Shown: positions 1 to 57,548 of the stretch, in pieces | Layout: every line of letters starts with the position of its first letter | Position numbering within the stretch: the stretch's first letter is position 1 | Assembly (NCBI RefSeq): GCF_001591405.1 | Contig: NZ_BCUV01000006.1 | Location: 620,001-684,000, forward strand | Source of the DNA: Janibacter terrae NBRC 107853 | GTDB taxonomy: Bacteria > Actinomycetota > Actinomycetes > Actinomycetales > Dermatophilaceae | Reading direction: 5' to 3' | DNA length: 64,000 nucleotides | Notes under the pieces: model-generated | What the model was told of the DNA's origin: nothing | Database searches by the model: none | The model's input: only the letters and a program-made list of their open reading frames with translations | Made by a program: the position numbers and the translations under genes

Positions 1-1299
1 GCCGGCACCGGTCGCGCGACCCTCGTCGCCTCCTACCTGCACACGCACTGGGCCGGCTCGCCCTCCGTGGCGGGGTCCTTCGTCGAGGCCGCTCGTGGCT
101 GGGGCCAAGCCCGCACGGTCACCTCGGACGAAGTCCCTCGGGGCGTCCGTGGATCGGGTGGGGTGGCGCTGGGGGCTTCGCCCGTGCACCCCACGTCCGC
201 GGAGCACTCACCTGACGCCCCGCAACCGGCTCAGCCCTTGAGTCGCGCCACCCCAGCCCGATCCACGTCCTTGGCAGACCCCCTTCGTCATCACGGGGAC
301 GCCGAGGTGTCGAGCGAGCTGGTGGACCTCGCCGTCAACGTGCGGCTCACCCAGCCGCCGGGGTGGCTCGCGCAGGCCCTCGCCGAGGAGCTGTCGACCG
401 TCGCGGCCTACCCCGACCCCACCCGTGCTCGGGATGCGATCGCCGCGCGGCACGGTGTGGCCCGCGACCAGGTGCTGCCGACGAGTGGTGGGGCCGAGGC
501 CTTCACGCTGCTCGCGCGGGCGCTGACACCGCGCGACGCGGTCGTCGTGCACCCGCAGTTCACCGAGCCCGAGGCCGCGCTGCGCGCCGCGGGGCACGAG
601 GTGCGGCGCGTCCTGCTGCGGCCGGAGGACGACTTTGCGCTCACGGCCCAGGCGCTCGGGCAGATCGGCGACGCCGACCTCGTCGTCGTCGGCAACCCGA
701 CCAACCCGACGGGCGTGCTCCACCCGGCAGCTACGCTGCGCTCGCTCGTGCGGCCCGGCCGGGTGGTCCTCGTCGACGAGGCCTTCATCGACTCCGTCCC
801 CGGCGAGCGCGAGACGCTCCTGGGGGGCGACCTCACCGGCCTGCTCGTCGTGCGCTCGCTGACCAAGACCTGGGCCGTCGCCGGCATCCGCGCCGGCTAC
901 GTCGTCGGAGACGCCGAGCTCGTCGCGGCCCTGGCCGAGCACCAACCGCACTGGTCCGTGGGCTCCCTCGCGCTGCGCGTCATGATCGAGACCGCCACCC
1001 AAGCCGCACTCGTCGAGGCCGACCGGGCCGCCGAGGAGATCGCCGGGTGGCGGGCCCACCTCACGCGGGGGCTGCACACGCTGGGCATCCCGACCGCCGG
1101 CGGGGACGCCCCCTTCGTCCTGGCCCGGGTCGGCACGGGTGTCCGCGAGGCGCTGCGCGATGCCGGGTGGGCCGTGCGGCGAGGCGATACGTTCCCGGGG
1201 CTCGACACCGCATGGGTGCGGATCGCCGTCCGTGACCCCCACACCATCGACGGGTTGCTGAGAGAGCTGACCCACCTGCACCACCGGAGGACCGCATGA
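1..1299 (+). CDS. cobC: Fusion of cobyrinate a,c-diamide synthase C-terminus (CobB) with CobC-type PLP aminotransferase; 5' end outside window
   Basis: The frame is open from base 1, so the gene begins upstream. The first ~35 codons carry SYLHTHWAG, the C-terminal signature of CobB (cobyrinate a,c-diamide synthase, class I glutamine amidotransferase). After a ~55-residue Pro/Ser/Ala-rich linker, the frame continues from about base 270 into a fold-type I PLP enzyme of the Rv2231c/CobC type. Seen there are GNPTNPTG (substrate-side loop) and SLTKTW, whose Lys (bases 865-867) should form the Schiff base. The family makes or transfers the aminopropanol arm of cobalamin; CobB amidates the corrin ring. 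An internal start near base 67 is possible but would remove the CobB signature. The gene overlaps cobA by ATGA, heading a tightly coupled cob operon. Confidence 0.85.
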   Translation, partial: AGTGRATLVASYLHTHWAGSPSVAGSFVEAARGWGQARTVTSDEVPRGVRGSGGVALGASPVHPTSAEHSPDAPQPAQPLSRATPARSTSLADPLRHHGDAEVSSELVDLAVNVRLTQPPGWLAQALAEELSTVAAYPDPTRARDAIAARHGVARDQVLPTSGGAEAFTLLARALTPRDAVVVHPQFTEPEAALRAAGHEVRRVLLRPEDDFALTAQALGQIGDADLVVVGNPTNPTGVLHPAATLRSLVRPGRVVLVDEAFIDSVPGERETLLGGDLTGLLVVRSLTKTWAVAGIRAGYVVGDAELVAALAEHQPHWSVGSLALRVMIETATQAALVEADRAAEEIAGWRAHLTRGLHTLGIPTAGGDAPFVLARVGTGVREALRDAGWAVRRGDTFPGLDTAWVRIAVRDPHTIDGLLRELTHLHHRRTA

Positions 1300-2060
1300 C
1301 CGACGCCACCACCGCCACCGGGCGGGTCATCCTCGTCGGCGGAGGGCCGGGCGACCCCGGCCTGCTCACCGTCGCCGGACACGACGCGCTTGCGGCGGCC
1401 GACATCGTCGTCACCGACCGCCTCGGTCCGGTCGCGGCGCTCGACGAGATCGCCCCGCAGGCCGAGATCGTCCACGTCGGCAAGATCCCCCGCGGCAAGT
1501 TCACCCCCCAGGAGCGGATCAACGAACTGCTCGTCGAGCACGCCCGCGCCGGCCGGACCGTGGTGCGGCTCAAGGGCGGTGACGGTTACCTCTTCGGCCG
1601 CGGCGGCGAGGAGTGGAACCACTGCGTCGCCGCCGGCGTGCCCGTCGAGGCCGTGCCGGGCGTCTCCTCCGCCTTCTCCGTGCCGGCCCTCGCCGGCATC
1701 CCGGTGACCCACCGCGGCCTGTCCCAGGGCGTCGCGGTCGTCTCCGGGCACGTCGCCCCCGACGACCCGCGCAGCGAGGTCGACTGGGCGGCGCTGGCCA
1801 CCTCGCGTCTGACGATCGTCATCCTCATGGGGGTCGCCACCCTCGGGGCGATCGCCGAGGCGCTCGTCGCGGCCGGCCTGTCCCCCGACACCCCCGCCGC
1901 GTGCATCGCCGACGGGGCCACCCCGCAGCAGCGCTCGGTGCGGGCGCCCCTGTCGCAGATCGCCTCCGCGGCCGACGAAGGGGGCTTCGCTCCCCCGGCC
2001 ATCACGGTCGTCGGTGACGTCGTCGGCGCCCTCGACTCACCGGCCCCCACCTCGCCGTGA
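1296..2060 (+). CDS. cobA: Uroporphyrinogen-III C-methyltransferase (SUMT)
   Basis: A cytosolic SAM-dependent enzyme that methylates uroporphyrinogen III at C2 and C7 to precorrin-2, the branch point to cobalamin and siroheme. The 254-aa length fits a stand-alone SUMT without CysG domains. Visible are the N-terminal glycine-rich loop GGGPGDPGLLT (about residues 15-25), RLKGGDGYLFGRGGEE (91-106) and the PGVSSAF loop (121-127), all typical of tetrapyrrole methylases. The ATG start overlaps the cobC stop (ATGA) and its own stop overlaps cobS, so translation is probably coupled. Confidence 0.95.
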   Translation: MTDATTATGRVILVGGGPGDPGLLTVAGHDALAAADIVVTDRLGPVAALDEIAPQAEIVHVGKIPRGKFTPQERINELLVEHARAGRTVVRLKGGDGYLFGRGGEEWNHCVAAGVPVEAVPGVSSAFSVPALAGIPVTHRGLSQGVAVVSGHVAPDDPRSEVDWAALATSRLTIVILMGVATLGAIAEALVAAGLSPDTPAACIADGATPQQRSVRAPLSQIASAADEGGFAPPAITVVGDVVGALDSPAPTSP

Positions 2061-2881
2061 GCGCGTCCGAGGGGCTGCGCCTGGCCGTCGGGACCTTCAC
2101 CCGGTCGCCGAGTGGCCGGGTGACGATCACCCCCGACACCGCGCGCACCGCGCTGCTCCTCGCGCCGCTCGCGGTCCTCCCCCTCGCGCTCCAGGTCGTC
2201 CTCGTCGGACTCACCGTCGAGATCGGCGTGCCACCGCTCGTCGCCGCGGGCCTCGCGCTCGGCGTGCTCGCCCACGGCTCACGGGGCATGCACCTCGACG
2301 GCCTGGCCGACACGGTCGACGGCCTCGGCGCCGGCTGGGACCGCGAGCGGGCGCTCGAGATCATGCGGCGCGGCGACGTCGGCCCGATGGGGGCGGTCGC
2401 GCTCGTCGTCGTGCTGCTCGTGCAGGCCGGGGCGATCGCCGCTCTGCTCGGGTCCGGCTGGCGCGGGGCCCTCGTCGTCGGGGCCGCCGTCGTGGCGTCC
2501 CGGGCGGCTGCCCCCGCCGTCTGCGGTCGCGGGCAGCAGGCCGCGCCGGGCTCGAGGCTCGGGGCGGCCTTCGTCGGCACCGTGCCCCTCGTCGGCGCCG
2601 CGCTCGTGGTGCTCGCCGTCGGTGCGCTCGTCGTGGCATCGGTGCTGCCGGTCGCCCTGCTGCTGGCGGGTCTGGGTGACGGGAGCTCCGCGGCCCCCTT
2701 GTGGATGGTAGCGCGGGCCGTGCTCGTGGCGGCAGTGGCCGCGCCCGTGGCCGTCTGGGCGGCGATCTCGCTCCGGGACAAGGCTGTTCGCACCTTCGGC
2801 GGTGTGGGTGGCGACGTCATCGGGGCCGGTGTCGAGGTGGCTCTCACCGTGCTGCTCGTGCTGCTGACGGTGGCGTGGTGA
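2057..2881 (+). CDS. cobS: Adenosylcobinamide-GDP ribazoletransferase (cobalamin synthase)
   Basis: An integral-membrane enzyme joining alpha-ribazole to adenosylcobinamide-GDP, the last step of the nucleotide loop pathway. The 274-aa protein has several hydrophobic segments and the conserved HLDGLADTVDG stretch at about residues 79-89, whose Asp residues are thought to bind Mg2+. MRRGDVGPMG follows, also family-typical. The GTG start overlaps the cobA stop (GTGA). It sits directly before cobU, which makes its GDP-activated substrate. Confidence 0.93.
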   Translation: MSASEGLRLAVGTFTRSPSGRVTITPDTARTALLLAPLAVLPLALQVVLVGLTVEIGVPPLVAAGLALGVLAHGSRGMHLDGLADTVDGLGAGWDRERALEIMRRGDVGPMGAVALVVVLLVQAGAIAALLGSGWRGALVVGAAVVASRAAAPAVCGRGQQAAPGSRLGAAFVGTVPLVGAALVVLAVGALVVASVLPVALLLAGLGDGSSAAPLWMVARAVLVAAVAAPVAVWAAISLRDKAVRTFGGVGGDVIGAGVEVALTVLLVLLTVAW

Positions 2882-3429
2882 GCATGCGCGTCCTCGTCAC
2901 CGGTGGCGTCCGCTCGGGCAAGTCCCGGCACGCCGAGGCCCTCCTGCTGCCCCCGCACGTGCCCGAGGGCACGCCCGTCACCTATCTCGCGGCCGGCCCG
3001 CAGCGCGACGACGCCGACTGGGCGGCTCGCGTGGCCGCGCACCGGCAGCGGCGACCGGCGACCTGGTCGACCGTCGAGAGCACGGACGCGGCGAGTGGCC
3101 TGTGGGAGGCCGAGGACCCGGTCCTGCTCGACTGCCTCGGCACCTGGCTGACCGCCCAGCTCGACGAGATCGAGGCCTGGGAGGCACCCGAGCACCACTG
3201 GGGCCCCACGCTCGAGCAGCGGGTGGACGACCTCGAGGCGGCCTGGCGCGCAGCCCCCTTCGTCGTGGCCGTGACCAACGAGGTCGGCTGGGGGCTGGTC
3301 TCGGAGCACCGCTCCGGGCGGATCTTCGCCGACCGTCTCGGCTGGCTCAACCAGCGCCTTGCCGCGTCCGCCGACCGGGTCGACCTCGTGGTCTCGGGGC
3401 AGGTGCTGACGATCAAGGGGGCCGGGTGA
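2878..3429 (+). CDS. cobU: Bifunctional adenosylcobinamide kinase / adenosylcobinamide-phosphate guanylyltransferase
   Basis: Phosphorylates adenosylcobinamide and transfers GMP from GTP to it. The 183-aa protein begins VSMRVLVTGGVRSGKS, with the P-loop GGVRSGKS at residues 9-16, and has VTNEVGWGLV in the second half, typical of CobU/CobP. GTG at 2878 is chosen because it overlaps the cobS stop in the same GTGA pattern used by its neighbours; ATG at 2884 is the alternative. The distal half carries one copy of the repeated 10-mer (3255-3264), there encoding Pro-Phe-Val. Confidence 0.92.
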   Translation: MSMRVLVTGGVRSGKSRHAEALLLPPHVPEGTPVTYLAAGPQRDDADWAARVAAHRQRRPATWSTVESTDAASGLWEAEDPVLLDCLGTWLTAQLDEIEAWEAPEHHWGPTLEQRVDDLEAAWRAAPFVVAVTNEVGWGLVSEHRSGRIFADRLGWLNQRLAASADRVDLVVSGQVLTIKGAG

Positions 3430-4349: not shown

Positions 4350-5099
4350 TCAGTCGCTGATCTGGCCCAGGACCCACGTCGTGGCGGCGTCGGCATCGCT
4401 CGCCTCCGCGACGCCCGGCGCCCGCGCCGGGCGCGACACGACGACGACCGGCACCCCGACGTGTCGGGACGCGTCGAGCTTGGCCTCGGTGTAGCGACCA
4501 CCCGAGTCCTTGGTGAGCAGCACGGTGACGCCGTGCTCGCGCATGATCGCCTCCTCGTCGGCGACGGCGAAGGGCCCCCGCGAGCGCAGCACGGTCCAGG
4601 CCGCCGGCAGTGGCCGCTCCGCAGGCTCGACGAGCCGGACGAGCACCGGCCGGTCGGCCCAGGCGTCGATGTGGTGGTGCAGGGTCTGCCGCCCCGTCGT
4701 GACGAAGGGGATCCCGCCCACCTCGTCCGCCGCCTCCCGGGCAGCCACGTGGTCCTCGACCCAGGTCCAGGACGCGGCGTCGGGGTGTGCGGCCCAGCCC
4801 GGCCGCGCCAGTCGGAGGAGGGGCAGGCCGAGCGACGAGCAAGCCTGTGCCGCATGGGCGCCCATCGTCGCGGCGAAGGGGTGGGTGGCGTCGACGACCG
4901 CGCTCACCTCGTGCTCACGGAGCCAGTCGGTCAAGCCAGCGACCCCACCGAACCCGCCGATCCGCACGGGCCCGACCGGCAGTCGGGGCTGCGACACCCG
5001 GCCGGCGAGGGAGGAGGTGAGGGGCACCCCCTGGGCGTCCAGGCGAGCGGCGAGATCCCTCGCCTCGGCGGTCCCTCCGAGGATCAGCACGTGCGACAT
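4350..5099 (-). CDS. cobK: Precorrin-6A reductase
   Basis: Reduces the corrin macrocycle of precorrin-6A with NADPH in aerobic cobalamin synthesis. The 249-aa protein opens MSHVLILGGTAEARDLA, a Rossmann-like start, and carries VVDATHPFA (the conserved DATHPFA box) and LLTKDSGG near the C-terminus, all typical of CobK/CbiJ. ATG at 5099 is chosen because a GGGAGGGTGA ribosome-binding site precedes it; the open frame upstream is low-complexity. It is convergent with cobD. One repeated 10-mer (4701-4710) encodes Pro-Phe-Val here. Confidence 0.92.
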   Translation of the reverse strand: MSHVLILGGTAEARDLAARLDAQGVPLTSSLAGRVSQPRLPVGPVRIGGFGGVAGLTDWLREHEVSAVVDATHPFAATMGAHAAQACSSLGLPLLRLARPGWAAHPDAASWTWVEDHVAAREAADEVGGIPFVTTGRQTLHHHIDAWADRPVLVRLVEPAERPLPAAWTVLRSRGPFAVADEEAIMREHGVTVLLTKDSGGRYTEAKLDASRHVGVPVVVVSRPARAPGVAEASDADAATTWVLGQISD

Positions 5100-8867: not shown

Positions 8868-8904
8868 GAGAGCTGCTCCTGGTGGGACGAAGGGGTGTGC
8901 CCGA

Positions 8905-9885: not shown

Positions 9886-10842
9886 GTGCCCGTCCGCCAC
9901 CGCCTCCTCGCCGTCGTCGTCGCCGTCCTCTGGGGCGCCAACTTCATCGCCATCCACGCCTCGCTCGAGATCTTCCCGCCCTTCTTCTGCTCGGCGCTGC
10001 GCTTCCTGCTGCTGGCGATCCCGACCATCGCCCTCGTCCCCCGCCCGCAGGTCCCCACGCGCTGGCTCGTCGGGTACGGCATCGGCTTCGGCATCCTGCA
10101 GTTCGCCTTCCTCTACCTCGCGATGGACGTCGGCATGCCGGCCGGCCTCGCGTCCCTCGTGCTGCAGAGCTCCGCGCCCTTCACCGTCGTCCTCGGCGCG
10201 GCACTTCTCGGCGAGCGCCTCTCTGCCCGCGCGGCGGCCGGGGTCGGCGTCGCCGCGCTCGGCATGGCCGTCGTCGGGTCGCAGCGCCTCGACGCGCAGG
10301 CGGGGCTCCTCCCCTTCGTCCTCACCCTGCTCGCCGGCCTGGGCTGGGCCTTCGGCAACCTCGCCTCCCGCCTGGCCGCCGCCCCCGAGCCGCTCCACCT
10401 GACGATGTGGATGACGGTGATCCCGCCGCTCCCCCTGCTCGCGGTGTCGCTGGCCGTCGAGGGCCCCGAGCGCATCGGCGCGGCCCTCGCCGACTCGATG
10501 ACCGCGGCGGCGATCCCGGCCTGGCTCGGCATGGTCTACACGACGCTCCTCGCGACGGTCGTCGGTTCGGGCATCTGGACCTGGCTCATGGCGCGCCACC
10601 CCTCGGGGACGGTCGCGCCGTTCTCGATGCTCGTCCCGGTCACCGGGCTCGGTCTGGCCTGGCTGCTCCTGGACGAGGTGCCCGCTCCGCTCGAGCTGCT
10701 CGGCGGCGTCCTCGTCGTCGGCGGGGTGCTGTGGGCCTCGCGGCCGAGCACGCGAGGTCGTCCTGGTGCATCCGGTGGCCGGATCCGCCACGAGGTGCAC
10801 GAGGACGACCTCGGGTGCACACCGGTCAGCGGATCGCGCTGA
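9886..10842 (+). CDS. EamA/DMT-family transporter
   Basis: A drug/metabolite exporter-type permease of ~318 aa with ten hydrophobic segments in two EamA repeats. It opens VPVRHRLLAVVVAVLWGANFIAIH, a classic EamA first helix. The start is uncertain: GTG 9886 fits the family length, while ATG 9859, TTG 9850 (7 nt after a CACAAT -10) and ATG 9841 are in frame upstream. No ribosome-binding site supports any of them. The last ~30 codons are not membrane-like and are encoded by a long hairpin, so the C-terminus may be an extension into a terminator. Probably controlled by the divergent LysR gene. Confidence 0.85.
   Translation: MPVRHRLLAVVVAVLWGANFIAIHASLEIFPPFFCSALRFLLLAIPTIALVPRPQVPTRWLVGYGIGFGILQFAFLYLAMDVGMPAGLASLVLQSSAPFTVVLGAALLGERLSARAAAGVGVAALGMAVVGSQRLDAQAGLLPFVLTLLAGLGWAFGNLASRLAAAPEPLHLTMWMTVIPPLPLLAVSLAVEGPERIGAALADSMTAAAIPAWLGMVYTTLLATVVGSGIWTWLMARHPSGTVAPFSMLVPVTGLGLAWLLLDEVPAPLELLGGVLVVGGVLWASRPSTRGRPGASGGRIRHEVHEDDLGCTPVSGSR
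10753..10813. terminator. Long imperfect hairpin at the EamA / sirtuin convergent ends
   Basis: The left arm starts CGAGGTCGTCCT (10753-10764) and the right arm ends AGGACGACCTCG (10802-10813). Inner pairs GTGCA/TGCAC and GTGGC/GCCAC continue the stem with small mismatched bulges. It lies inside the last codons of the EamA gene and 13 bp beyond the sirtuin stop, so it could stop transcripts from both sides. There is no U-run, as is common in high-GC actinobacteria. Confidence 0.55.
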
Positions 10843-15359: not shown

Positions 15360-16205
15360 TCAGAAGAGGATCGTCGAGAAGGTCCCGATCCGCTCCATGC
15401 CGATCCGTCGGTAGGTGGCGATCGCCGGGGCGTTGTAGTCGTTGACGTAGAGCGTGCCCAGGGGCGCGTGGTCGCTCATCGCCTGCTCGAGGGCGGCAGC
15501 CATCATGGGGGCGGCGAGCCCCTGCCCGCGCAGCTCGGGCGCGAGCCACACGCCCTGGATCTGGCTGGCCCCGAGCGCCACCGAGCCGACGTCGGCCTTG
15601 AAGATCACCCGTCCGCCCTCGACGACGACATAGGTCCGGCCCGCGCGGACCAGGCGCCAGATCGAGTCGCGGTAGAACGCGGGGCTGCCCGTGTAGGGCC
15701 GGTAGCCGATCTCCTGGGTGAACATGTGCTCGGCTGCGGGCAGCACGAGGTCGACCTCGTCGACGCGGGCCGGCCGCACCCGAGGGTCCAGCTCCACGCC
15801 GAGGGACGAAGGGGGTGTCCGCGTCGCCATGAGCGGCTGCTCGCCCCGGATGGCGCGGGGCTGGGGGAAGGCCGCACCGGCCTCGCGCCACAGGCCGGCC
15901 ACCTCGTCGCGCGGTCCGAGGAAGGAGGCGCAGCGGCGCCGCACCTTGCGCACGTGGGCGGCCAGCGCGGGCCAGCTCTGCGCGCTCGTGCCGACGGGCA
16001 CGACATTGGCGACGCTCCACACGAGGGCGGACAGACGCCCTTCGTCGAACCAGCCGTACGCGGAGGTCGAGCCGGAGCCGAGGCCACCGTCGAGGATGCG
16101 GCTGGCCACGAAGACGTGGGACGCGGGGTCCCGCGCGCACAGGTCCAGGGCCGCATCGACGTCGTCGGGGCCGAGGAGCCGGGTGGGTTGGCGGGTGCGC
16201 AGCAC
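15360..16205 (-). CDS. GNAT-family acetyltransferase with N-terminal DUF4081-like domain
   Basis: A 281-aa protein. The first half (about residues 1-130) matches the DUF4081-type region of mycobacterial Rv2867c; the second half is a GNAT domain with QGVWLAPELRGQGLAAPMMAA (acetyl-CoA loop) and VNDYNAPAIATYRRIGM. Its place directly after ispG, rip1 and dxr is the same as Rv2867c in Mycobacterium, which supports orthology; its function is unproven. The GTG start lies 6 nt from TAGGCT on its strand (16212-16217), so it probably also has its own leaderless promoter. Confidence 0.85.
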   Translation of the reverse strand: MLRTRQPTRLLGPDDVDAALDLCARDPASHVFVASRILDGGLGSGSTSAYGWFDEGRLSALVWSVANVVPVGTSAQSWPALAAHVRKVRRRCASFLGPRDEVAGLWREAGAAFPQPRAIRGEQPLMATRTPPSSLGVELDPRVRPARVDEVDLVLPAAEHMFTQEIGYRPYTGSPAFYRDSIWRLVRAGRTYVVVEGGRVIFKADVGSVALGASQIQGVWLAPELRGQGLAAPMMAAALEQAMSDHAPLGTLYVNDYNAPAIATYRRIGMERIGTFSTILF

Positions 16206-32678: not shown

Positions 32679-32720
32679 CGCGGACCTCGCTTCCGTGAGG
32701 AGGGACGAAGGGGGTGAGCG

Positions 32721-36197: not shown

Positions 36198-37349
36198 GTG
36201 ACGAGAGAGATCCGGCTGCACCCCCTGCGCGACCTGCTCGGTCGCCGCCGCAGCGACCCGACCTACCACGAGGTCCACGACGCCGACGAGCTGCGCCGGC
36301 TGACCGCCACCGGCGAGTCGCTCGCCGGCTGGCGGCTGCAGGGCCTCGACCTGGAGCCGCACGCCGAGCCGCTCTCCCGCAGCGACGTCCGCGGGCTCGT
36401 CGTCCTCGGCGGTACGGTCCCCGACGCGCTGGCGCAGAGCCTCGTCGCCCGCGGCGCGGTGATCATCCCGCCCGACCCGACGTGCCCGGTCGAGACCTTC
36501 CGCGCCCGGCTGTACTCCCCCTTCGACCTGTACGGCGGGCTCGAGGTCGACGGCTACCCGAGCACGGTCGACGCGCGGGCGTACGCGTGGAGCCGGGAGA
36601 CCCGCACGCAGCACGACGCCTACGCCACCCTCCTGCGGGCCGTGCACGACGACGCGGTGAACGACGCCCTTGTCGAGGCCCTCCACGGGCTCGACGTCGT
36701 CGGCGTGATGGGCGGGCACGCCCTCGGGCGCGGCAGCAGCGACTACGCGGACGCGGCCCGACTCGGCCAGGCCCTCGCGGGCGCCGGCCGGGCGGTGCTC
36801 ACCGGCGGCGGCCCGGGCGCGATGGAGGCGGCCAACCTCGGGGCGATCGCCCCCTCGCCCGAGGCCGTGGAGGCCGCCCTGGAGCGCCTGACGCAGGTGC
36901 CCTCCTTCCGCCCGTCGATCGACGCCTGGGCGAGCCTGGCGCTGTCGGTACGGGCGGACCTCGACGTCGCGGACGGCGGGGCGCGCAGCTTCGGCATCCC
37001 GACGTGGTTCTACGGGCACGAGCCGCCCAATGTCTTCTGCGGGGGCATCGCCAAGTACTTCTCCAACGCGCTGCGCGAGGACGTGCTGCTCGCGCGGAGC
37101 ACCGGCGGCCTCGTCGTCCTGCCGGGCGCGGCCGGCACCGTGCAGGAGGTCTTCCAGGCGTGCACGCCGCTGTACTACGCGCCGCCGGGCGACGCCCTGC
37201 CCCCGCTCGTGCTCGTCGGTCTCGAGCACTGGACCGAGACCGTGCCGGTGTGGCCGGCCCTGCGGGCCCTGGCCACGGGGCGCCCGCTCGCCGACGTCCT
37301 CCACCTCGTGGCGACCCCCGAGGAGGCCGCCGCGATCGTCCTGGCCTGA
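36198..37349 (+). CDS. LOG-family (TIGR00730-like) nucleotide-processing protein, long form
   Basis: A 383-aa protein whose C-terminal two thirds carry the lysine-decarboxylase-like LOG fold: VMGGHALGRG, LTGGGPGAMEAANLGA and LVVLPGAAGTVQEVFQ (a variant of PGGxGTxxE, with Gly-to-Ala at the second position). LOG enzymes release nitrogenous bases from nucleoside 5'-monophosphates. The N-terminal ~150 residues (VLGGTVPDALAQSL, then YAWSRETRT) are an extra domain found in the longer actinobacterial type. True lysine decarboxylase is ruled out by fold. The stop codon overlaps a copy of the 10-mer. Confidence 0.85.
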   Translation: MTREIRLHPLRDLLGRRRSDPTYHEVHDADELRRLTATGESLAGWRLQGLDLEPHAEPLSRSDVRGLVVLGGTVPDALAQSLVARGAVIIPPDPTCPVETFRARLYSPFDLYGGLEVDGYPSTVDARAYAWSRETRTQHDAYATLLRAVHDDAVNDALVEALHGLDVVGVMGGHALGRGSSDYADAARLGQALAGAGRAVLTGGGPGAMEAANLGAIAPSPEAVEAALERLTQVPSFRPSIDAWASLALSVRADLDVADGGARSFGIPTWFYGHEPPNVFCGGIAKYFSNALREDVLLARSTGGLVVLPGAAGTVQEVFQACTPLYYAPPGDALPPLVLVGLEHWTETVPVWPALRALATGRPLADVLHLVATPEEAAAIVLA

Positions 37350-37370
37350 CGAAGGGGGTCCGCCCCGGGG

Positions 37371-38246: not shown

Positions 38247-39463
38247 GCTGCGCCCGAGGTGGCCGCGGCGAGCTGCCCGCAGGCCCCGTCGATGTCGCTG
38301 CCCCGGGTGTCGCGCACGGTCGTCGGGATGCCGTGGGCGCGCAGCCGCTCGACGAACTGCTGCTCGACGCCGGGCCGCGAGGCGGTCCACCTCGAGCCGG
38401 GGGTCGGGTTGAGCGGGATCGGGTTGACGTGCACCCAGCCCCTGCCGCGCTGGGTGAGCTTCTTGCCGAGCAGGTCCGCCCGCCAGGCCTGGTCGTTGAC
38501 GTCCTTGATGAGCGCGTACTCGATGCTCACCCGGCGCCCGGTCCTCAGGTAGTAGCGGTGGGCCGCGTCGATCGCCTCGTCGACCTTGAAGCGGGTGTTG
38601 ATCGGCACCAGCTCGTCGCGCAGCTCGTCGTCGGGCGCGTGCAGCGACAGCGCGAGGGTCACCGGGATGCCCTCCTCGGTGAGCCGGTCGATGCCCGTCA
38701 CCAGCCCGACGGAGGACATCGTGATCCCCCGCGCGCTCATCCCGAGCCCCTCGGGCGAGGGGTCGACCATGCGGCGGATCGCGCCGATCGCCGCCGTGTA
38801 GTTGGCCAGGGCCTCCCCCATGCCCATGAAGACGACGTTGGTGACGCGCCGGCCCCCCGACGAAGGGAGGGACTCCCCTTCGTCGTCGGCCTCGGCGCCC
38901 AGCGCGACGCCCGTGTCGTCCCCGAGCGCCAGGTCACCGGCCTGCGCGAGCAGGCGGTTGGCGGCGACGACCTGGTCGACGATCTCGCCGGTCGACATGT
39001 TGCGCGTCAGGCCCTCCTGGCCGGTGGCGCAGAAGGGGCAGTTCATGCCGCAGCCGGCCTGGCTGGAGACGCAGATCGTCGCGCGGCGCGGGTAGCGCAT
39101 GAGGACGGACTCCACGAGCGCGCCGTCGTGCAGGCGCCACACGGACTTCAACGTCGCGCCCCGGTCGGCCGTGATGGTGCGCACCGGGGTGAGCAGGCGC
39201 GGGAGCATCGCCGTGACGAGCTCCTCGCGGGCCGCCTTGGGCAGGTCCGACATCTGCTCGGGGTCGTCGGTGTGGTGGGTGAAGTAGTGCGTCGACAGCT
39301 GCTTGGCGCGGAAGCCCGGCAGGCCGAGCTCCTTGGCCCACTCGACGCGACCGGCGAGGTCGAGGTCGGCGAGGTGGCGCGGCGGCTTGCCGCGCCGGGG
39401 CGCGGTCATCGTCAGCTGGCCGGGCACCGGGCGGGTGGTCGAGGGCGTGGGCAGGTCGGTCAT
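38243..39463 (-). CDS. rlmN: 23S rRNA/tRNA A2503/A37 C2-methyltransferase
   Basis: A radical SAM enzyme that methylates A2503 of 23S rRNA and A37 of some tRNAs. The 406-aa protein has the cluster motif CGMNCPFC (Cys138, 142, 145) and the MNPIP-like [13 protein letters not shown] near the end. Residues ~177-206 (LALGDDTG...SSGGRR) are an acidic insertion before [11 protein letters not shown] and contain the DNA hairpin at 38859-38884. GEALANY replaces the usual GEPLANY. ATG 39463 is preferred to GTG 39466 because GACACT lies 7 nt upstream, giving a leaderless start. Confidence 0.93.
38859..38884. repeat. Inverted pair of the 10-mer motif inside rlmN
   Basis: GACGAAGGGAG and CTCCCCTTCGTC face each other with three bases between, a stem of 11 pairs with one bulged C. 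It encodes part of an acidic insertion in RlmN, so a terminator-like structure sits within a coding sequence. Confidence 0.65.
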
Positions 39464-39538: not shown

Positions 39539-40414
39539 TCACACCGGGGCGATGATGCGCAGCGCCACCCACGCGAGCGGGACGACCAGGACGAGCGAGT
39601 CGAGGCGGTCCATCAGGCCCCCGTGCCCCGGGATGATGTTGGACATGTCCTTGATCCCGAGGTTGCGCTTGAGGCTGGACTCGATGAGGTCACCGATCGT
39701 CGCGACCGGGGCGACGAGCACGCCGAGGACCGCGCCCTGCCACCACTGGCCGTCGAGGGTGAGCGGGATGACGATCGCGCCCACGACCGCGCAGGACAGG
39801 ACCGAGCCGGCGAAGCCCTCCCAGGACTTCTTGGGCGAGAGCCGTGGTGCCATCGGGTGCTTGCCGAGGACCACCCCGAAGGCATAGCCGCCGATGTCGG
39901 AGAAGACCGTGACGATGATGAAGACGAAGATGCGCCACTGGCCCTGCGGCTCGGCGAGCATCATCGCCGCGAAACCCGCGAGCAGGCACGGGTAGAGCAG
40001 GATCAGCGCACCGGCGCCGACGTCCGGCAGGGCGCCGCCCAGCCCGTCCGCGACGCGCCAGACGAGGGTGGCCACGAGGGTGAGCGACGCGGCGAAGACG
40101 AGGCCCTCGGCACCGCGCAGGTAGGCCGCGACCGTCATGCTCACCGCGCCGACGGCGACCGGGACGAAGGGGGCGTACAGCCCCCCTTCGCTCAGGGCCT
40201 GACGCATCTCCCACACCGCCACGACCATGGCGAGGCAGATGAGGACGACGAAGACGACGGGGTGCGCCACGAGCGAGGCGACGACGAGGCCGGCCAGGGC
40301 GACCCCCGTCGCGATGGCGACCGGCAGGTTGCGGCCCGCCCGGCTCGAGGGCCCGGCGGGCGCGGGCGCGGCCGCCCGGATCGCCCGGCGGGACGCGAAC
40401 TCGGGCTCGGACAT
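39539..40414 (-). CDS. cdsA: Phosphatidate cytidylyltransferase (CDP-diglyceride synthase)
   Basis: A membrane enzyme making CDP-diacylglycerol from phosphatidate and CTP for phospholipid synthesis. The 291-aa protein has about eight membrane segments and the full PROSITE-type signature in SSLKRNLGIKDMSN ... GHGGLMDRLD near the C-terminus. A charged ~30-residue N-terminal tail precedes the first helix. ATG at 40414 is 1 bp past the frr stop. One 10-mer (40163-40172) encodes Pro-Phe-Val and pairs with a facing near-copy 9 bp downstream. Confidence 0.95.
   Translation of the reverse strand: MSEPEFASRRAIRAAAPAPAGPSSRAGRNLPVAIATGVALAGLVVASLVAHPVVFVVLICLAMVVAVWEMRQALSEGGLYAPFVPVAVGAVSMTVAAYLRGAEGLVFAASLTLVATLVWRVADGLGGALPDVGAGALILLYPCLLAGFAAMMLAEPQGQWRIFVFIIVTVFSDIGGYAFGVVLGKHPMAPRLSPKKSWEGFAGSVLSCAVVGAIVIPLTLDGQWWQGAVLGVLVAPVATIGDLIESSLKRNLGIKDMSNIIPGHGGLMDRLDSLVLVVPLAWVALRIIAPV
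40163..40190. repeat. Facing pair of the 10-mer motif inside cdsA
   Basis: CGAAGGGGG at 40165-40173 faces CCCCCTTCG at 40182-40190, a 9-bp stem with an 8-nt loop. The left copy extends to the full GACGAAGGGG. The pair lies within a membrane segment/loop of CdsA. Confidence 0.6.
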
Positions 40415-41778: not shown

Positions 41779-41856
41779 GTGCTGCTCCCTGGTGGATCGC
41801 GTGCTGGGTCACCCGATCCTTCCACAGTCGAGATGGTGCCCATGACCACCCACGAC

Positions 41857-41895
41857 GAAGGGGGCCGCACCCGGTGATCGGGTGCGGCCCCCTTC
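41857..41895. terminator. Perfect 17-bp-stem terminator between tsf and pyrH
   Basis: Left arm 41857-41873 (GAAGGGGGCCGCACCCG), loop GTGAT, right arm 41879-41895. It begins 16 bp after the tsf stop on the minus strand. The left arm is built on a copy of GACGAAGGGG (41854-41863). No T-run follows. Confidence 0.8.
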
Positions 41896-43726: not shown

Positions 43727-43958
43727 GCCGAAGTCCTCTCGTCGAAGGGTTGTCAGTTGTGTGCCTGGTGTCCCGACCCACCCCGCCCGATCCGACCGGG
43801 TGGTCGGAGGGGACTGCCGTGGTGCGCCCCGGGTTCGGAGAGAGATCTCGTCACACGGTGAGGAACACGCGAATTCATCCAGACAGACTGGATGTGCCCC
43901 CCATCCTACGGCCGCCGGACGAAGGGGAGAAATCGCCCGCTCCCCTAGGGTCGGGTGC
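43727..43958. promoter_or_regulatory. Divergent rpsB / dapC-like promoter region and rpsB leader
   Basis: On the minus strand TAGGAT (43907-43902) may be the rpsB -10. A hairpin CATCCAG-ACAGA-CTGGATG at 43876-43894 would lie just inside the leader, a possible S2 autoregulation site (inference). On the plus strand TAGGGT (43946-43951) is 7 nt before the aminotransferase ATG, suggesting leaderless expression. A 10-mer copy (43918-43927) falls in the presumed rpsB -35/-10 spacer. Confidence 0.5.
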
Positions 43959-46698: not shown

Positions 46699-47898
46699 TC
46701 ACCCCCCGCGCTCGGGTCCGGGGCCGCGCCGCCAGCCGCCGACGCCGTCCTGGACGGCCCACGCGTCGAGCTCCATGGCCGCGAGGTCGGCGAAGACCTC
46801 CTCGAGGGGCACCACGAGCTCGGTCGCGATCTCGTCGGCCCGGGTGGCCCGGCGCACCTGGAGCAGGTCGTGGACCCGGCGCTGCGTCGACGTCAGGACG
46901 TCGAGCGCGCGGGCCGGGCCGAGCAGCTCGACCTCCTCCTCGTCGAGCCCCTCGCCGATGGGGCGGGCCAGGGCGAGGACGTCATCGGTGTCGGTGACGA
47001 TCCCGGCCTGGCCCTTGCGGATCGACTCGTGGCACCCCGCCGAGGACATCTGCGTGACGGGGCCGGGCACTGCCCCGACCTGTCGCCCGAGGTGCTGCGC
47101 CCAGTTGGCGGTGTTGAGCGAGCCCGACCGCAGCCCCGCCTCGACGACGACGGTCACCGAGGACAGCGCCGCGATGATCCGGTTGCGAGCGAGGAAGCGG
47201 TGTCGCATGGCCACGGTCCCCGTCGCCAGCTCGGTGACGACCGCGCCGCCCTCGGCGACCGCCTCGACGAGCCGGCGGTTGCCCTCGGGGTAGACCCGCT
47301 CGGGCCCGCACGGGAGCACGGCGACGCACGGACCGTCGACCGCGAGCGATCCCTGGTGGGCGGCGGCGTCGATGCCGAACGCCGCCCCCGACACGACCGT
47401 CCAGCCACGACCGGCGAGGCCGGCCCCCAGCTCGCGCGAGACCGCCTCGCCGTAGCCGGTGCTGGCACGCGACCCGACGACGGCCACGGCCCTGCGGGTG
47501 AGGTCGGCGAGGCAGCCCCCGCCCCGCACGTGCAGCAGGTGCGGCTGGATGTCGGTGTCGGACAGGGCCGCTGGCCAGTCCGCGTCCCCGGGGACGACCA
47601 CCCGGGACCGGGTCCTCGCCACCCGGTCGAGCTCGGCGTCGACGTCGACACCGGCGACGTGCACCCGAGCGCTGGCGCAGCGGGGCAGGTCACCGTCGAC
47701 GAGCCGGTGCCACGCCTCGACGTGGCCCAGCGACCAGATGTCGTCGAAGAGCGCCGGTCGCGAGTCGCTCGGCCGCTCCCGCCGGCTCTCCAGCACCCGT
47801 GACCAGGCGATGCGCGCACGCCGCTCGTCCGTGCCGACCTGGGCGTGGGCTCGAGCCGTCTCCGCCCGCGTCGGGGCGCTGCCTCCCGTCCGGCTCAT
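46699..47898 (-). CDS. dprA: DNA-processing protein DprA
   Basis: Binds incoming single-stranded DNA and loads RecA in transformation. The 399-aa protein has the Rossmann fold with [68 protein letters not shown] and [22 protein letters not shown], then a C-terminal winged-helix DprA domain ([23 protein letters not shown]). An N-terminal extension of ~100 residues precedes the core. ATG overlaps the comM stop. Its presence beside comM and yraN matters for the uptake-sequence-like 10-mer seen across the window. Confidence 0.94.
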
Positions 47899-49433
47899 GC
47901 CGCCACCGCGCCCTGCGTGCGGTACATCAGCGCCAGCCCGACGTCGACGCGGCTCGGTGTGGTCCGGCCGTTGAGGTCGGCCGAGGTCCACGCCAGCCGC
48001 AGGACGCGGTCGTAGCCGCGGAGCGTGACCTGCCCCAGGTCCAGAGCCCGGTCCAGGGTGGAGGTCGTCTGGGACGACAGGCGGAAGGGGCGCCGCCGCA
48101 GCACCGGTCCGGGCACCTGGCTGTTGAGCACCCACCCGTGGGTCGACCAGCGGCGTGCCTGCGCCGAGCGCGCCTCGACGACGCGGGTGGCGACGGCCGC
48201 GCTCGTGTCGGGCGCGGCCTCGTTGAGGTCGGCCAGGCTCACCTTGGGCACCTGCACCTGGATGTCGACCCGGTCGAGCAGCGGCCCGCTGAGGCGTGCG
48301 GCATAGGCGCGTCGCTCGGTGGGTCGGCAGCGGCAGCTGAGCCCCTTGCCGTGCCCCTCCCCGCAGGGGCAGGGGTTGGCGGCGAGCACGAGCTGCACGC
48401 GCGCCGGGTACGAGACACGTTCCCGGGCGCGGGCGATGACGACCTCACCGGACTCCAGGGGTTGGCGCAGTGCTTGGAGGACCGCCCCACCGAACTCGGC
48501 GGCCTCGTCGAGGAAGAGGACGCCGTGGTGCGCCTGGGACACCGCGCCCGGCAGGACGGCCCCGGACCCACCACCGACGAGGGCGGCGACGCTCGCCGAG
48601 TGGTGCGGGGCGACGAAGGGCGGGACGAGGTCGATCCCCGAGTCCGGCACGGCCCCGACGAGCGACCTGATCGCGAGCGTCTCGAGCGCCTGGTCGCGGG
48701 TGAGGGGCGGCAGGATCGTCACCAGCCGCTCGGCGAGCATCGTCTTGCCCGAGCCGGGCGGTCCGTTGAGCAGGAGGTGGTGACCACCGGCCGCGGCGAG
48801 GAGCAGCGCGGTGCGCGCCTCGTGCTGCCCGGACACGTCGGCGAGGTCGATCGGTCGCTCGCGCTCCGTCGACTCCGGGACGGGCGGGTCCTCCGCGAGC
48901 GGCAGGACGCCTCCGCGGGGCAACCGGCGGTAGGCCATGACGAGGTCCTCGAGGGTCGCGGCGGTGGAGACCCGCATGCCCTCGACCAGCCGGGCCTCGG
49001 CGACGTCCTCGGGTGCCACGACGACCTGCTCGCACCCGGCAGCCTGGGCGGCCAGCACCGCGGGCAGGACCCCGGCGACGTGCCGCAGGCGACCGTCGAG
49101 CCCGAGCTCGGCCAGGTGCACGACCGGCCGAGCGCTCGCTGCCGGCAGCTCGCCGCAGGCGGCGAGCGCGACGACGGCGATGCCGAGGTCGAACCCGGTG
49201 CCGTGCTTGGGGATCGATGCCGGGGAGAGGTTCACCGACAGGTGGGCCGTGTTGAGCGAGACGCCGGCGGAGATGGCCGCAGAGCGCACCCGCTGCGGCG
49301 CCTGGCGCAGCGCCCGGTCGGGCAGGCCGCCCACGTCGAAGGTCGGCAGCCCCTGCCCGGCATGGCACTCGATCTCGACGAGGTGCCCGGTGACCCCGCG
49401 CAGCGCCACGCCGCGCGTCACGGCGATGCTCAT
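47895..49433 (-). CDS. comM: ComM/YifB-family Mg-chelatase-like AAA+ ATPase
   Basis: A branch-migration helicase that promotes integration of transforming DNA in Vibrio and Haemophilus (family knowledge). The 512-aa protein has an N-terminal Lon-protease-like fold domain (LPTFDVGGLPDRAL, then SIPKHGTGFDLGIAV), Walker A NGPPGSGKTML, Walker B GVLFLDEAAEF, and a zinc-like CPCGEGHGKGLSCRC insert. The ATG overlaps the yraN stop and its own stop overlaps dprA: three coupled DNA-processing genes. Confidence 0.94.
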   Translation of the reverse strand: MSIAVTRGVALRGVTGHLVEIECHAGQGLPTFDVGGLPDRALRQAPQRVRSAAISAGVSLNTAHLSVNLSPASIPKHGTGFDLGIAVVALAACGELPAASARPVVHLAELGLDGRLRHVAGVLPAVLAAQAAGCEQVVVAPEDVAEARLVEGMRVSTAATLEDLVMAYRRLPRGGVLPLAEDPPVPESTERERPIDLADVSGQHEARTALLLAAAGGHHLLLNGPPGSGKTMLAERLVTILPPLTRDQALETLAIRSLVGAVPDSGIDLVPPFVAPHHSASVAALVGGGSGAVLPGAVSQAHHGVLFLDEAAEFGGAVLQALRQPLESGEVVIARARERVSYPARVQLVLAANPCPCGEGHGKGLSCRCRPTERRAYAARLSGPLLDRVDIQVQVPKVSLADLNEAAPDTSAAVATRVVEARSAQARRWSTHGWVLNSQVPGPVLRRRPFRLSSQTTSTLDRALDLGQVTLRGYDRVLRLAWTSADLNGRTTPSRVDVGLALMYRTQGAVAA

Positions 49434-51914: not shown

Positions 51915-52598
51915 TCAGGACCCGGTGCCGCCGATGCGGTCCATCGGCCAGTAGCGCCAGGCGACGTGCCCGACGACGTCGTCGACCGGCACCATGCCAC
52001 CGCCGGGGTCGCCGAGGTGGCTGCGCGAGTCGACCGAGTCGCCCCGGTTGTCGCCGAGCACGAAGAGCCGACCCGGGGGGACCTCGACGTCGAAGGGGGT
52101 CCCGCACGCCCTCGTCCCCGGCGCCAGGTACGGCTCGGGCACGACCTCGCCGTTGACCACGAGCCCCCGCTCCGGGGTGCACGCGACCCGGTCGCCGCCG
52201 ACCCCGGCGACGCGCTTGAGGAAGTCCTGCTCGCCCAGGTCGATCGAGAGGGTGGAGGCGACCGCGGAGAGCGTGCGCCCGACGAACCCGTCGGAGACGA
52301 AGGGGGTGCGGTCGGCGGCCGCGAAGGTGTCCGTGCCGTCGAAGACGATGACGTCGCCGCGCTCGACGCGCGAGGCACCGATCTTGGTGACCACGACCCG
52401 GTCGCCGGGGGCGATCGTCGGCTCCATCGAGGAGCTCGGGACGTGGAAGGACTGCATGACGAAGGCCCGCACCAGCATGACGAGCAGGACCGCGACCGCG
52501 ATCTCGAGCATCAGCCGCCGGGCCGGACGCACATCGACCCCCGCCGGGTCACCGGCGGGGGTCGACGCAGCTGCGTCCGGGGCGGGATCGGTCGACAT
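51915..52598 (-). CDS. Signal peptidase I (shorter paralog)
   Basis: A second signal peptidase of 227 aa. Ser in VPSSSMEPTI and Lys in FLKRVAGVGGD are the catalytic dyad; GDNRGDSVDSR is present. One N-terminal membrane helix is seen (about residues 28-48). Two 4-Cys differences from its neighbour imply early divergence. TAGGCT lies 7 nt before the ATG (52606-52611 on the plus strand), so it probably has its own leaderless promoter even though it follows rplS by 43 bp. One 10-mer (52296-52305) encodes Pro-Phe-Val. Confidence 0.94.
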   Translation of the reverse strand: MSTDPAPDAAASTPAGDPAGVDVRPARRLMLEIAVAVLLVMLVRAFVMQSFHVPSSSMEPTIAPGDRVVVTKIGASRVERGDVIVFDGTDTFAAADRTPFVSDGFVGRTLSAVASTLSIDLGEQDFLKRVAGVGGDRVACTPERGLVVNGEVVPEPYLAPGTRACGTPFDVEVPPGRLFVLGDNRGDSVDSRSHLGDPGGGMVPVDDVVGHVAWRYWPMDRIGGTGS

Positions 52599-54404: not shown

Positions 54405-54407
54405 GGC

Positions 54408-54956
54408 TCACTCCCCCGACGAGTCGAGGTCGAGCAGGCCGGGAGGCGCGTCGACGACGAGCCGGCCGGCCTCGGGGTCGACCTCCGGCACGATCGCCTC
54501 GACGAAGGGGACGAGAGCCCGCGTGCCGTCCGGTCGCCGCAGCACGAGCCGGTCCTGGGCGGCGCCGAGCTCCAGGGCGACGACCTCGCCGACGACCTCG
54601 CCGTCCGGGGTCCGGGCGGTGAGGCCGACGAGGTCCGCCTCGTACCAGCCCTCGTCGTCGTCCTCGTCCTCGAAGGCCTCCGCCGCGAGGACCAGGCGCG
54701 TGCCGCGCAGGGACTCCGCGCCGGTGCGGTCCTGGACCTCCTCGAACCCGAGGAGCCAGATCCCGCGGTGGACGCGGGTCGTTGCCAGGGTCAGCCGGCG
54801 CGGCACGCCCGACCCGGGCCCGGCGCGGGTGTCGAAGACGGTACCCGGCACGAGCCGTGACTCCGGGTCGTCGGTGTGCAGCTGCACGGTCACCTCGCCA
54901 CGCAGCGCGTGGGGCTTGCCGATGCGAGCGACGACGTGGCCGTCGGTGTCAGTCAT
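54408..54956 (-). CDS. rimM: 16S rRNA-processing protein RimM
   Basis: Helps 30S head assembly around S19. The 182-aa protein has the two domains: HVVARIGKPHALRGEVTVQLHTD (RimM N-terminal) and the PRC-barrel part (YEADLVGLTARTPDGEVVGEVVAL, PFVEAIVPEVD). TAGGTT lies 7 nt before the ATG at 54956 (54964-54969 on the plus strand), pointing to a leaderless mRNA separate from rpsP-khpA, which ends in a hairpin just upstream. One 10-mer encodes Pro-Phe-Val. Confidence 0.94.
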   Translation of the reverse strand: MTDTDGHVVARIGKPHALRGEVTVQLHTDDPESRLVPGTVFDTRAGPGSGVPRRLTLATTRVHRGIWLLGFEEVQDRTGAESLRGTRLVLAAEAFEDEDDDEGWYEADLVGLTARTPDGEVVGEVVALELGAAQDRLVLRRPDGTRALVPFVEAIVPEVDPEAGRLVVDAPPGLLDLDSSGE

Positions 54957-54969: not shown

Positions 54970-54993
54970 CGATTCCGCGCCCCGACATGGCGA

Positions 54994-55025: not shown

Positions 55026-55052
55026 GCGCGCGTGCTGACGGCCCGCGCTGGA

Positions 55053-55295: not shown

Positions 55296-55296
55296 C

Positions 55297-55842: not shown

Positions 55843-56133
55843 GTGTGTGGTCCCTTCGTTTCGTGAGCACGGCGAGACCGTGCGCGGTTCGCACGGGGTA
55901 TCGGGCTCGGGGTGTAGGCATCCGGCGCGCAGGAGGGATCCCCGGCGCGGACGGGTACGAAGGGGGATTCTTCCACGCGGGGCAGCGCCCGGCCAAAACC
56001 GGCCCCGACGCGTCACCCTGCGGCCCCCGCCAGTTGCTCTCCCGGTCACCGTCACGTCGCCCACCGGCCGTTGGCTGGCTCACGTCCCGGCCCTCGTCCG
56101 GCGACCGAGCCCCTGATCAAGGAGAACATCTTC
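55843..56133. promoter_or_regulatory. Divergent region between rpsP and phoX
   Basis: About 290 bp without a gene. On the minus strand a hairpin GCACGG-CGAGA-CCGTGC at 55867-55883 would lie in the rpsP leader, and GATACC near 55898 is a weak -10. On the plus strand AAGGAG (56119-56124) is the phoX ribosome-binding site, 9 nt before GTG. Two GTCACC-like words near 56043-56052 faintly recall Pho boxes but are too poor to call. Confidence 0.35.
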
Positions 56134-57495
56134 GTGAGCACCGAGCAGTCCCCCTTCGTCCAGCGTCGCACGATCATCCAGGGCGCGGCCGCCCTCGCTG
56201 CCCTCGGCCCGCTCGGCGCCCTCGGCGCGCGCACCGCCGGTGCGGCCCCGATGGCCCGACAGCCCTTCGGCCCCGACTACGGCCCGCTGCGTCCGACCAA
56301 GGACCAGACCACCGGCCTCGAGCTCATCTCGCTGCCCAGGGGCTTCGAGTACCTCACCTTCGGGTGGACCGGCTCGATGATGTCCGACGGCCGCCCCACC
56401 CCGGCGATGCACGACGGCATGGCCGCCTTCCGCGACGGTGACTTCGTGCGCCTCGTCCGCAACCACGAGAACGGCACGGGCAGCGCCTACGCCACCCCCG
56501 CCTACGACGCCCTCGAGGGCGCAGGTGGCACGACCACCCTCGTCTTCGACCCTGACGCCGGTGAGCTCGTCGAGTCCTACGCCTCCCTCGCCGGCACCGT
56601 GCGCAACTGCGCGGGCGGCCCGACCCCCTGGGGCACCTGGCTCTCCTGCGAGGAGACCACGCACATCGCCGCCGACGGCACGCGCCACGGCTACGTCTTC
56701 GAGGTGCCGGCGAAGGGCATGAGCGACGCCACGCCGATCAAGGAGATGGGCCGGTTCTCGCACGAGGCGACCTGCGTCGACCCCTCGACCGGCATCGTCT
56801 ACCTCACCGAGGACGCGACCCCGTCCGGCCTCTACCGCTTCGTCCCGACGACCCCGGGCCGGCTCGCCGACGGCGGACAGCTGCAGATGCTCGCCATCGG
56901 GTCCGCGACGTACCAGACGTACGGCGACGGCACGGGCGTCACCTACAGCGACCTGTCGTGGGTCACCATCGACCAGCCCGACCCGGGTCCGGGCGAGACG
57001 AGCACCGTGCGCCAGGGCATCGCCAAGGGCGGCGCCCAGTTCGCCCGGCTCGAGGGGGCCTGGTGGGGCAACGACCGCGCCTACATCGTCTCCACGAGCG
57101 GCGGCCCGGCCAAGCAGGGCCAGGTCTTCGAGTACGACCCGAAGGCCGGGACGCTCACCGTCCTCATCGCCTCCCCGAGCGCCCAGACGCTCAACAACCC
57201 CGACAACATCTGCGTCTCGCCCCGCGGCGGCATCGTCCTGTGCGAGGACGGCAGCGGCAGCGAGTACCTCCACGGCCTGACCGCGACGGGCGAGATCTTC
57301 CCCTTCGCCCAGAACACCGTGGTCCTGCCGAGCAACGGCCTGGCGGGCAGCACGGTGCGCGCCGGCAGCTACACGGGGTCGGAGTGGTGCGGCTCGACCT
57401 TCGAGCCGAAGAACGGCAACTGGCTCTTCGCCAACGCGCAGAGCCCGGGCATCACCTTCGCCATCACCGGCCCGTGGCGCAAGGGCGCCCTCTGA
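56134..57495 (+). CDS. phoX: PhoX-family (DUF839) phosphatase-like protein, Tat-exported
   Basis: A 453-aa protein beginning with a twin-arginine signal (QRRTIIQGAAALAALGPLGALG, Tat cleavage near AGAAP). The mature part resembles PhoX, a calcium/iron-dependent alkaline phosphatase: NHENGTG, GTWLSCEET, SHEATCVDPSTGIVYLTED and NNPDNICVSPRGGIVLCEDG are typical DUF839 blocks with Glu/Asp metal ligands. Exported phosphatase activity to scavenge phosphate is likely; some DUF839 proteins have other roles. GTG 56134 is supported by AAGGAG. It ends at a 44-bp palindrome. A 10-mer near its N-terminus encodes Pro-Phe-Val. Confidence 0.87.
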   Translation: MSTEQSPFVQRRTIIQGAAALAALGPLGALGARTAGAAPMARQPFGPDYGPLRPTKDQTTGLELISLPRGFEYLTFGWTGSMMSDGRPTPAMHDGMAAFRDGDFVRLVRNHENGTGSAYATPAYDALEGAGGTTTLVFDPDAGELVESYASLAGTVRNCAGGPTPWGTWLSCEETTHIAADGTRHGYVFEVPAKGMSDATPIKEMGRFSHEATCVDPSTGIVYLTEDATPSGLYRFVPTTPGRLADGGQLQMLAIGSATYQTYGDGTGVTYSDLSWVTIDQPDPGPGETSTVRQGIAKGGAQFARLEGAWWGNDRAYIVSTSGGPAKQGQVFEYDPKAGTLTVLIASPSAQTLNNPDNICVSPRGGIVLCEDGSGSEYLHGLTATGEIFPFAQNTVVLPSNGLAGSTVRAGSYTGSEWCGSTFEPKNGNWLFANAQSPGITFAITGPWRKGAL

Positions 57496-57504
57496 GGACG
57501 GCCT

Positions 57505-57548
57505 GACGAAGGGGAGGTCGCAGCGATCGCTGCGACCTCCCCTTCGTC
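57505..57548. terminator. 44-bp perfect palindrome made of two facing 10-mers
   Basis: Arms 57505-57526 and 57527-57548 match perfectly around GCGATCGC. Both ends are exact copies of GACGAAGGGG/CCCCTTCGTC. It lies between the stops of phoX (+) and the Rrf2 gene (-), the layout of a bidirectional terminator. Confidence 0.85.

Follow-up and report, generated by a model that had tools for sequence, protein, structure and literature searches.

Why should one short word recur many times, within genes and between them and on both strands, in a single stretch of a Janibacter chromosome? The question is raised by a 64-kb stretch of DNA from Janibacter terrae NBRC 107853 (the window; C6:620001-684000 of a genome of 3,576,202 bases in 11 contigs), for which an initial annotation had listed 23 exact copies of the 10-mer GACGAAGGGG/CCCCTTCGTC and likened them to a DNA uptake sequence. 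Every one of these copies lies where it had been placed, 15 on the plus strand and eight on the minus strand, and the estimate of less than one chance copy is sound: the GC content, assumed to be about 72%, measures 72.6%, and dinucleotide shuffles (n = 100) yield a mean of 0.39 copies and a maximum of 3. The described spread over genes, gaps and a gene end was likewise recovered (15 genic copies, seven intergenic, one across a gene end) with genes called by a custom codon-score script, which was trained on this genome and applied to other genera too; the facing pair at 57505/57539, proposed to form a hairpin, folds at -46.1 kcal/mol (z -7.4), and the presence of dprA and comM in the window is borne out by profile matches above cut-off (Table 1). 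From the comparisons described below we conclude with good confidence that the word, in its complete form GRCGAAGGGRR, would serve Janibacter and a neighbouring genus, g59, as their DNA uptake (self-recognition) word, by the full mechanism proposed further down; the best reading of these sequence patterns is a DNA uptake sequence system that may have evolved independently in Actinobacteria.

The 10-mer is a real word but merely one register of a longer and degenerate one. The strongest 9-mer in the window is CGAAGGGGG with 40 copies, its relaxed form CGAAGGGRR occurs 59 times, and one of the 23 copies of the 10-mer, that at 8886, falls outside GRCGAAGGGRR as its next base is T. Genome-wide, GACGAAGGGG is present 760 times (375 plus, 385 minus) versus six times for the reversed word (1 plus, 5 minus), and CGAAGGGGG 1,797 times versus 22. 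In a 444-kb sample of the genome (the window and 19 further stretches, with one masked 596-base contig left out) CGAAGGGGG reaches 239 copies, where a fourth-order Markov model expects 16.8. Its flanks exceed 0.15 bit solely at the two preceding positions (G, then A/G), so that information amounts to at least 0.42 bit within 11 positions and to at most 0.15 bit outside; variants at the last two positions are enriched as well (CGAAGGGAG 67 vs 11, CGAAGGGGA 50 vs 14), others far less or not at all. Because of this flank information and these end variants we define the unit as approximately 11 bp, GRCGAAGGGRR, with the core CGAAGGGGG; in its degenerate form the word occurs about once in 1.2 kb. 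A mobile or REP-like repeat was rejected, since the flanks are hardly conserved and little information extends beyond the 11 positions. Enrichment in the rest of the genome and in sister species, a check that had been suggested together with the uptake hypothesis, is evident: all 15 other Janibacter genomes carry 797-1,860 copies of CGAAGGGGG, the lowest count in the genus being that of G001 (797). The DprA of the window is most similar to proteins of J. merdipullorum (73%), J. anophelis (72%), J. corallicola (68%) and Marihabitans (60%), in agreement with its assignment to Janibacter, and the loci of these four relatives each contain 9-15 copies of CGAAGGGGG.

We then turn to the family, sampled by 139 genomes of 53 genera and compared by genus labels, tree-free. 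Merely 11 of these genomes, from two genera (eight Janibacter and three of g59), are rich in CGAAGGGGG, with 1,317-1,939 copies in g59 and at most 80 in each of the other 128 genomes. A second word, GTATGCCG, which is unrelated to CGAAGGGGG, has 625-4,724 copies in 73 genomes of 30 genera, with a strand balance of 0.48-0.53; 14 genomes have 150-599 copies, and 52 have fewer than 150, including all sampled Janibacter and g59. Genomes rich in the one word and genomes rich in the other do not overlap. At named loci, GTATGCCG occurs in Knoellia, Intrasporangium, Phycicoccus elongatus and Ornithinimicrobium; beyond the family, 229 genomes drawn from 19 families show no more than background counts of it (maximum 177, in a genome with 135 copies of the reversed word). 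A third word, GGATGCCG, is a one-base variant of GTATGCCG and prominent in Humibacillus: seven genomes, belonging to g17, g48 and g65, carry 2,099-4,480 copies, and all others at most 1,336. Within g65, the two genomes most laden with GGATGCCG (3,619 and 4,480) have the fewest copies of GTATGCCG (288 and 361), and those with 2,099 and 2,195 copies carry 1,189 and 1,217 of GTATGCCG. The genera g47 and g57 are mixed, each combining rich genomes with one nearly devoid of the word. By genus labels, the three words look like uptake-sequence dialects that follow taxa. No clear further dialect emerged from word-less genera in 13-33 kb from each of ten genomes and 29 kb from G085. A weak candidate is ACCGCCTCC in G021 (genus g7, L166; 10 copies in 20 kb vs 0.6 expected), and GGCATCCG in G055, a genome of another family (L219; 14 vs 2.2 expected), could be a word similar to GGATGCCG.

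The arrangement of neighbouring copies is a further characteristic of the words. Among neighbours less than 60 nt apart in three Janibacter sets (444, 400 and 352 kb), 78 pairs are inverted and seven direct, and the preference holds within genes (30 inverted, 2 direct) and for GTATGCCG (18 inverted, 2 direct). At least seven of the 15 convergent close pairs in the J. terrae genome start 0-17 nt after the stop codon of the preceding gene, and four convergent pairs that were folded form near-perfect hairpins (z -6.0 to -8.4). At distances of 60-600 nt, inverted neighbours again dominate, as judged by strand permutation (1,000 per set): 72 of 103 in the J. terrae genome (P 0.000), 90 of 129 in G008, another Janibacter species (P 0.000), 27 of 39 in other Janibacter (P 0.033) and 42 of 54 in GTATGCCG genomes (P 0.000), with 44 of 72 in GGATGCCG genomes (P 0.066). 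Beyond 1.5 kb the excess is lost except in the J. terrae genome. The alternation of word directions thus reaches about 1.5 kb, far past the range of hairpins, and is weakest for GGATGCCG.

Could the word simply result from codon usage and a GC-rich composition? Some copies do encode favoured codons, for example those of Pro-Phe-Val by the count of the initial annotation, and genic copies of CGAAGGGGG use the codon phases unevenly (2 to 69 per class). The codon-aware null that had been proposed as a check, however, leaves most copies unaccounted for: in synonymous-codon shuffles, which preserve the protein and codon usage and not codon pairs, the 187 coding copies in 434 called genes compare with a mean of 28.3 and a maximum of 42 (60 shuffles). 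The degenerate word in genes of G008 (278 vs mean 35.9, max 48; 40 shuffles), GTATGCCG (102 vs 6.9 in the pool, 36 vs 2.5 in G101) and GGATGCCG (20 vs 5.0 in the pool, 86 vs 13.6 in G137, 56 vs 8.8 in G063) behave likewise. Both gene strands are used (90 sense, 97 antisense), and density is higher between genes than within them, by 2.8x in J. terrae (1.31/kb vs 0.46/kb) and approximately fourfold in G008. Together with the scarcity of the reversed word and the background level of CGAAGGGGG in 51 of the 53 sampled genera, the shuffles and the intergenic density refute codon usage as the explanation, whose probability we consider negligible. An equally negligible chance is left to an FtsK/SpoIIIE-orienting polar sequence (KOPS/SRS), an alternative prompted by the GAAGGG that the word shares with the SpoIIIE word according to the initial annotation and by the strand ratio of 15:8. 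This ratio is correct for the window, but genome-wide it dissolves into 375:385. Replication polarity is also absent from the one-contig genome G008, with 195:209 over 20 evenly spaced stretches and a co-orientation of 0.540 for the best two-arc split versus 0.550 at random (P 0.78); an apparent run of 14 consecutive plus-strand copies was rejected as polarity, the sampled stretches there carrying both strands. With neighbouring words tending to opposite directions and origin-to-dif co-orientation missing, an orienting role is refuted.

Two other functions inside the cell deserve more weight, though neither is likely. As a Chi-like site, the word would be read on one strand by RecBCD/AdnAB and would stimulate repair recombination. 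Its density and its genic copies would suit this role, and so would the partial conservation of positions between species: in relatives, 37 of 71 word-by-relative cells are identical and 44 of 71 are still words, compared with 68 of 284 identical cells for control 9-mers. The lack of strand polarity renders the Chi alternative, raised along with the uptake hypothesis, improbable nonetheless; moreover, the words form inverted pairs and hairpins, which to our knowledge play no role in Chi, and they are swapped for an unrelated word between genera and for a one-base variant within a genus. Slightly less probable still is an unspecified genome-wide site of protein binding or modification, such as the target of a nucleoid protein, of methylation or of phosphorothioation, or a word of the HIP1 type. 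Confinement to two sampled genera and the spread over both strands would be compatible with such a site, and words of this kind may function without any relation to uptake. HIP1 of cyanobacteria is a palindromic, clade-wide and highly iterated short word; GRCGAAGGGRR resembles it in being clade-wide and highly iterated, yet it is not its own reverse complement. Modification sites, besides, are usually not enriched, and the hairpin pairs suit uptake better, as does the word-poor prophage of this genome (12 words in the 36.55 kb of this one prophage vs 350 in 424 kb elsewhere).

DNA uptake, by comparison, is supported by the abundance of the word, its codon-aware excess, the absence of polarity, the inverted pairs (with the exception of those of GGATGCCG), the dialects and the competence genes. 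The process we propose would begin on the surface of the cell, where word-bearing free DNA would be bound preferentially; the binding protein is probably pilin-like and part of the conserved tad/DUF4244 pilus. The bound DNA would be pulled to ComEA and ComEC and enter as a single strand, which DprA would load for recombination. DprA protects incoming strands, and the neighbouring yifB gene, also named comM, has a role in transformation. Because word-bearing DNA would enter more often, recombination would spread and keep copies genome-wide, in both orientations and several reading frames; intergenic copies, often inverted pairs, could act as terminator hairpins; and, with other words (GTATGCCG, GGATGCCG) in use among related genera, each dialect would favour DNA of its own kind. 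What we infer from the patterns in this sense is the preference in uptake, the receptor, the drive by recombination and the function as terminators. The machinery itself is widely present: ComEC was found in all 16 Janibacter genomes, in 57 of 58 relatives and in 135 of the 139 family genomes, and ComEC/Rec2 with adjoining ComEA was confirmed in another Janibacter genome (G012). A seven-gene tad cluster of J. terrae (C2:11099-15197) encodes a 63-residue DUF4244 pilin, DUF4244 occurs in 127 of the 139 genomes, and the competence pilin Flp of Micrococcus luteus (sequence as in PMC6370729) matches DUF4244 with E 4.3e-12. A type IVa pilus was dismissed as the conduit, PilT being above cut-off in none of the 16 Janibacter genomes. 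J. terrae has two more tad-like clusters in C7:1294001-1314000 (L200), with Flp_Fap pilin matches at C7:1293942 and C7:1306501.

Several observations weigh against the uptake reading. ComEC and DUF4244 are nearly universal, word-poor genomes included, so both were rejected as predictors of the word: they would permit uptake and do not explain which genomes carry it. The Flp_Fap pilin (PF04964) fails as a predictor too (61 of 139 genomes, three of the eight sampled Janibacter), and a comparison of 21 tad/DUF4244 cluster loci, in six of which tadA was not found, pointed to no receptor, as none of their genes was tied to the word class. Pairs of GGATGCCG less than 60 nt apart lack the inverted excess (8 inverted and 11 direct in the pool, 1 and 6 in G137). 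The reversed GTATGCCG control is itself raised in some carriers, up to 578 copies, and the Janibacter word has no obvious core in common with GTATGCCG or GGATGCCG, unlike the dialects of Neisseriaceae. Gap lengths between words are random in the J. terrae genome and more even than random solely in G008. The comEC gene of the strain itself is cut by a prophage at about codon 270, and the literature matches listed (open-licence PMC literature, preprints left out) contain neither uptake or transformation data for the family nor a report of uptake words in Actinobacteria.

How would such a system relate to those already described? In the available portion of a 2025 paper, Neisseriaceae and Pasteurellaceae, both proteobacterial, are named as the sole families with sequence-selective uptake (PMC12616744). 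The DNA uptake sequences (DUS) of Neisseriaceae, as far as the accessible part of PMC3630211 describes them, are alike in being short high-copy words, genic as well as intergenic, with terminator-linked inverted pairs and dialects that follow taxa by few-base changes. Janibacter differs in belonging to the high-GC, Gram-positive Actinobacteria, in its other words, that of Janibacter having no obvious core in common with the other two, and in that PilT remains below cut-off (ComP was not searched by itself) and the tad/DUF4244 pilus is the candidate conduit. The uptake signal sequences (USS) of Pasteurellaceae share the core of about 9 bp, the high copy number and the two dialects in one family, according to the portions available of PMC12616744 and PMC2346458, whereas Janibacter is of another lineage, its word is unrelated and its flanks hold little information. 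A parallel for the apparatus is M. luteus, also an actinobacterium with comEA/comEC and tad clusters and a DUF4244 pilin, whose Flp/tad-dependent transformation requires these clusters in the accessible text of PMC4322843 (see also PMC6370729); the term 'uptake sequence' does not occur in that text of PMC4322843. With moderate confidence we suggest that the Dermatophilaceae/Intrasporangiaceae may hold the first Gram-positive uptake-word system, of independent origin, served by a tad/Flp rather than a type IVa pilus, with at least three dialects including full replacement in Janibacter, with alternating neighbours, with the effect of a barrier to the exchange of genes between genera, and repeatedly countered by prophages through insertion into comEC. 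If true, this would add a third family, high-GC and Gram-positive and with a different pilus, and self-recognition by an iterated word would have arisen at least three times. It would also provide a natural dialect series, from a one-base shift in a genus to full replacement between genera, for the receptor hunt and for the study of word origins, and DNA bearing a strain's own word could make genetics easier in Janibacter, Knoellia and their relatives.

The interruption of comEC extends beyond J. terrae. There, the aligned part of comEC ends 66 bases away from the start of a serine integrase gene, which is followed by phage genes, among which PHROGs identifies terminase, portal, head protease and endolysin; the prophage occurs twice in tandem (C6:462554 onward and C6:507051 onward), and a comparison of 9,447 bases of the two copies showed 100% identity. 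In G115 and G085, comEC is cut at the same place and the integrases are homologous serine integrases (59% identity), and in G130 the gene is divided between contig ends at this very position. Codon 270 or thereabouts is therefore a recurrent insertion site of elements in four genera (in G130 by the contig split). Of four element proteins from G115 and G085 compared with PHROGs, one from G085 matches an integrase and another, weakly, a tail protein, and the two from G115 are without a match. Elements that disrupt competence genes are known from pneumococcus, as stated in the available part of PMC12637031. The repeated targeting suggests that the function of comEC is important in this family.

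Table 1. Word copies, word pairs and competence genes in the window, and the interrupted comEC (positions are those of the window unless a contig is named; word copies are those of the 10-mer)
Feature	Position	Strand	Context
Word copy GACGAAGGGGG	280..289	-	intergenic
Word copy	1110..1119	-	coding
Word copy	1974..1983	+	coding
Word copy	3255..3264	-	coding
Word copy	4701..4710	+	coding
Word copy	8886..8895	+	intergenic; T follows, off-consensus
Word copy	10311..10320	-	coding
Word copy	15805..15814	+	coding
Divergent word pair, 21427-21435 (-) / 21464-21472 (+)	21427..21472	.	coding
Word copy	21846..21855	-	coding
Word copy	22032..22041	+	coding
Word copy	23258..23267	+	coding
Word copy	30513..30522	+	coding
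Word copy	32704..32713	+	intergenic
Word copy	37348..37357	+	spans end of gene 36198-37349 (+)
Convergent word pair, 4 nt gap	38861..38884	.	coding; contains 10-mer copy 38875-38884 (-)
Convergent word pair, 8 nt gap	40163..40190	.	coding; contains 10-mer copy 40163-40172 (+)
Word copy	41854..41863	+	intergenic
Word copy	43918..43927	+	intergenic
dprA, DNA-processing protein DprA	46699..47796	-	TIGR00732 above cut-off
yifB/comM, Mg chelatase-like AAA ATPase	47895..49433	-	TIGR00368 above cut-off
Word copy	52296..52305	+	coding
Word copy	54501..54510	+	coding
Word copy	56151..56160	-	coding
Facing word pair, 21-bp hairpin, terminator-like	57505..57548	.	between two convergent genes
Divergent word pair	63375..63403	.	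intergenic
Interrupted comEC, J. terrae genome	C6:460.9-463.9k and 551.5-553.0k		L199 8899-11951; L257 11465-13043

Other words were over-represented as well. In the sample of the J. terrae genome, CTAGGGCAAT (12 copies vs 0.01 expected) and CCCTAGGG (20 vs 2.1) stand out and may belong to a small repeat. In G001 (L181-L188), several 10-mers of a family around GGGCAGTTGC attain 25-27 copies in 160 kb, perhaps as part of an array or repeat.

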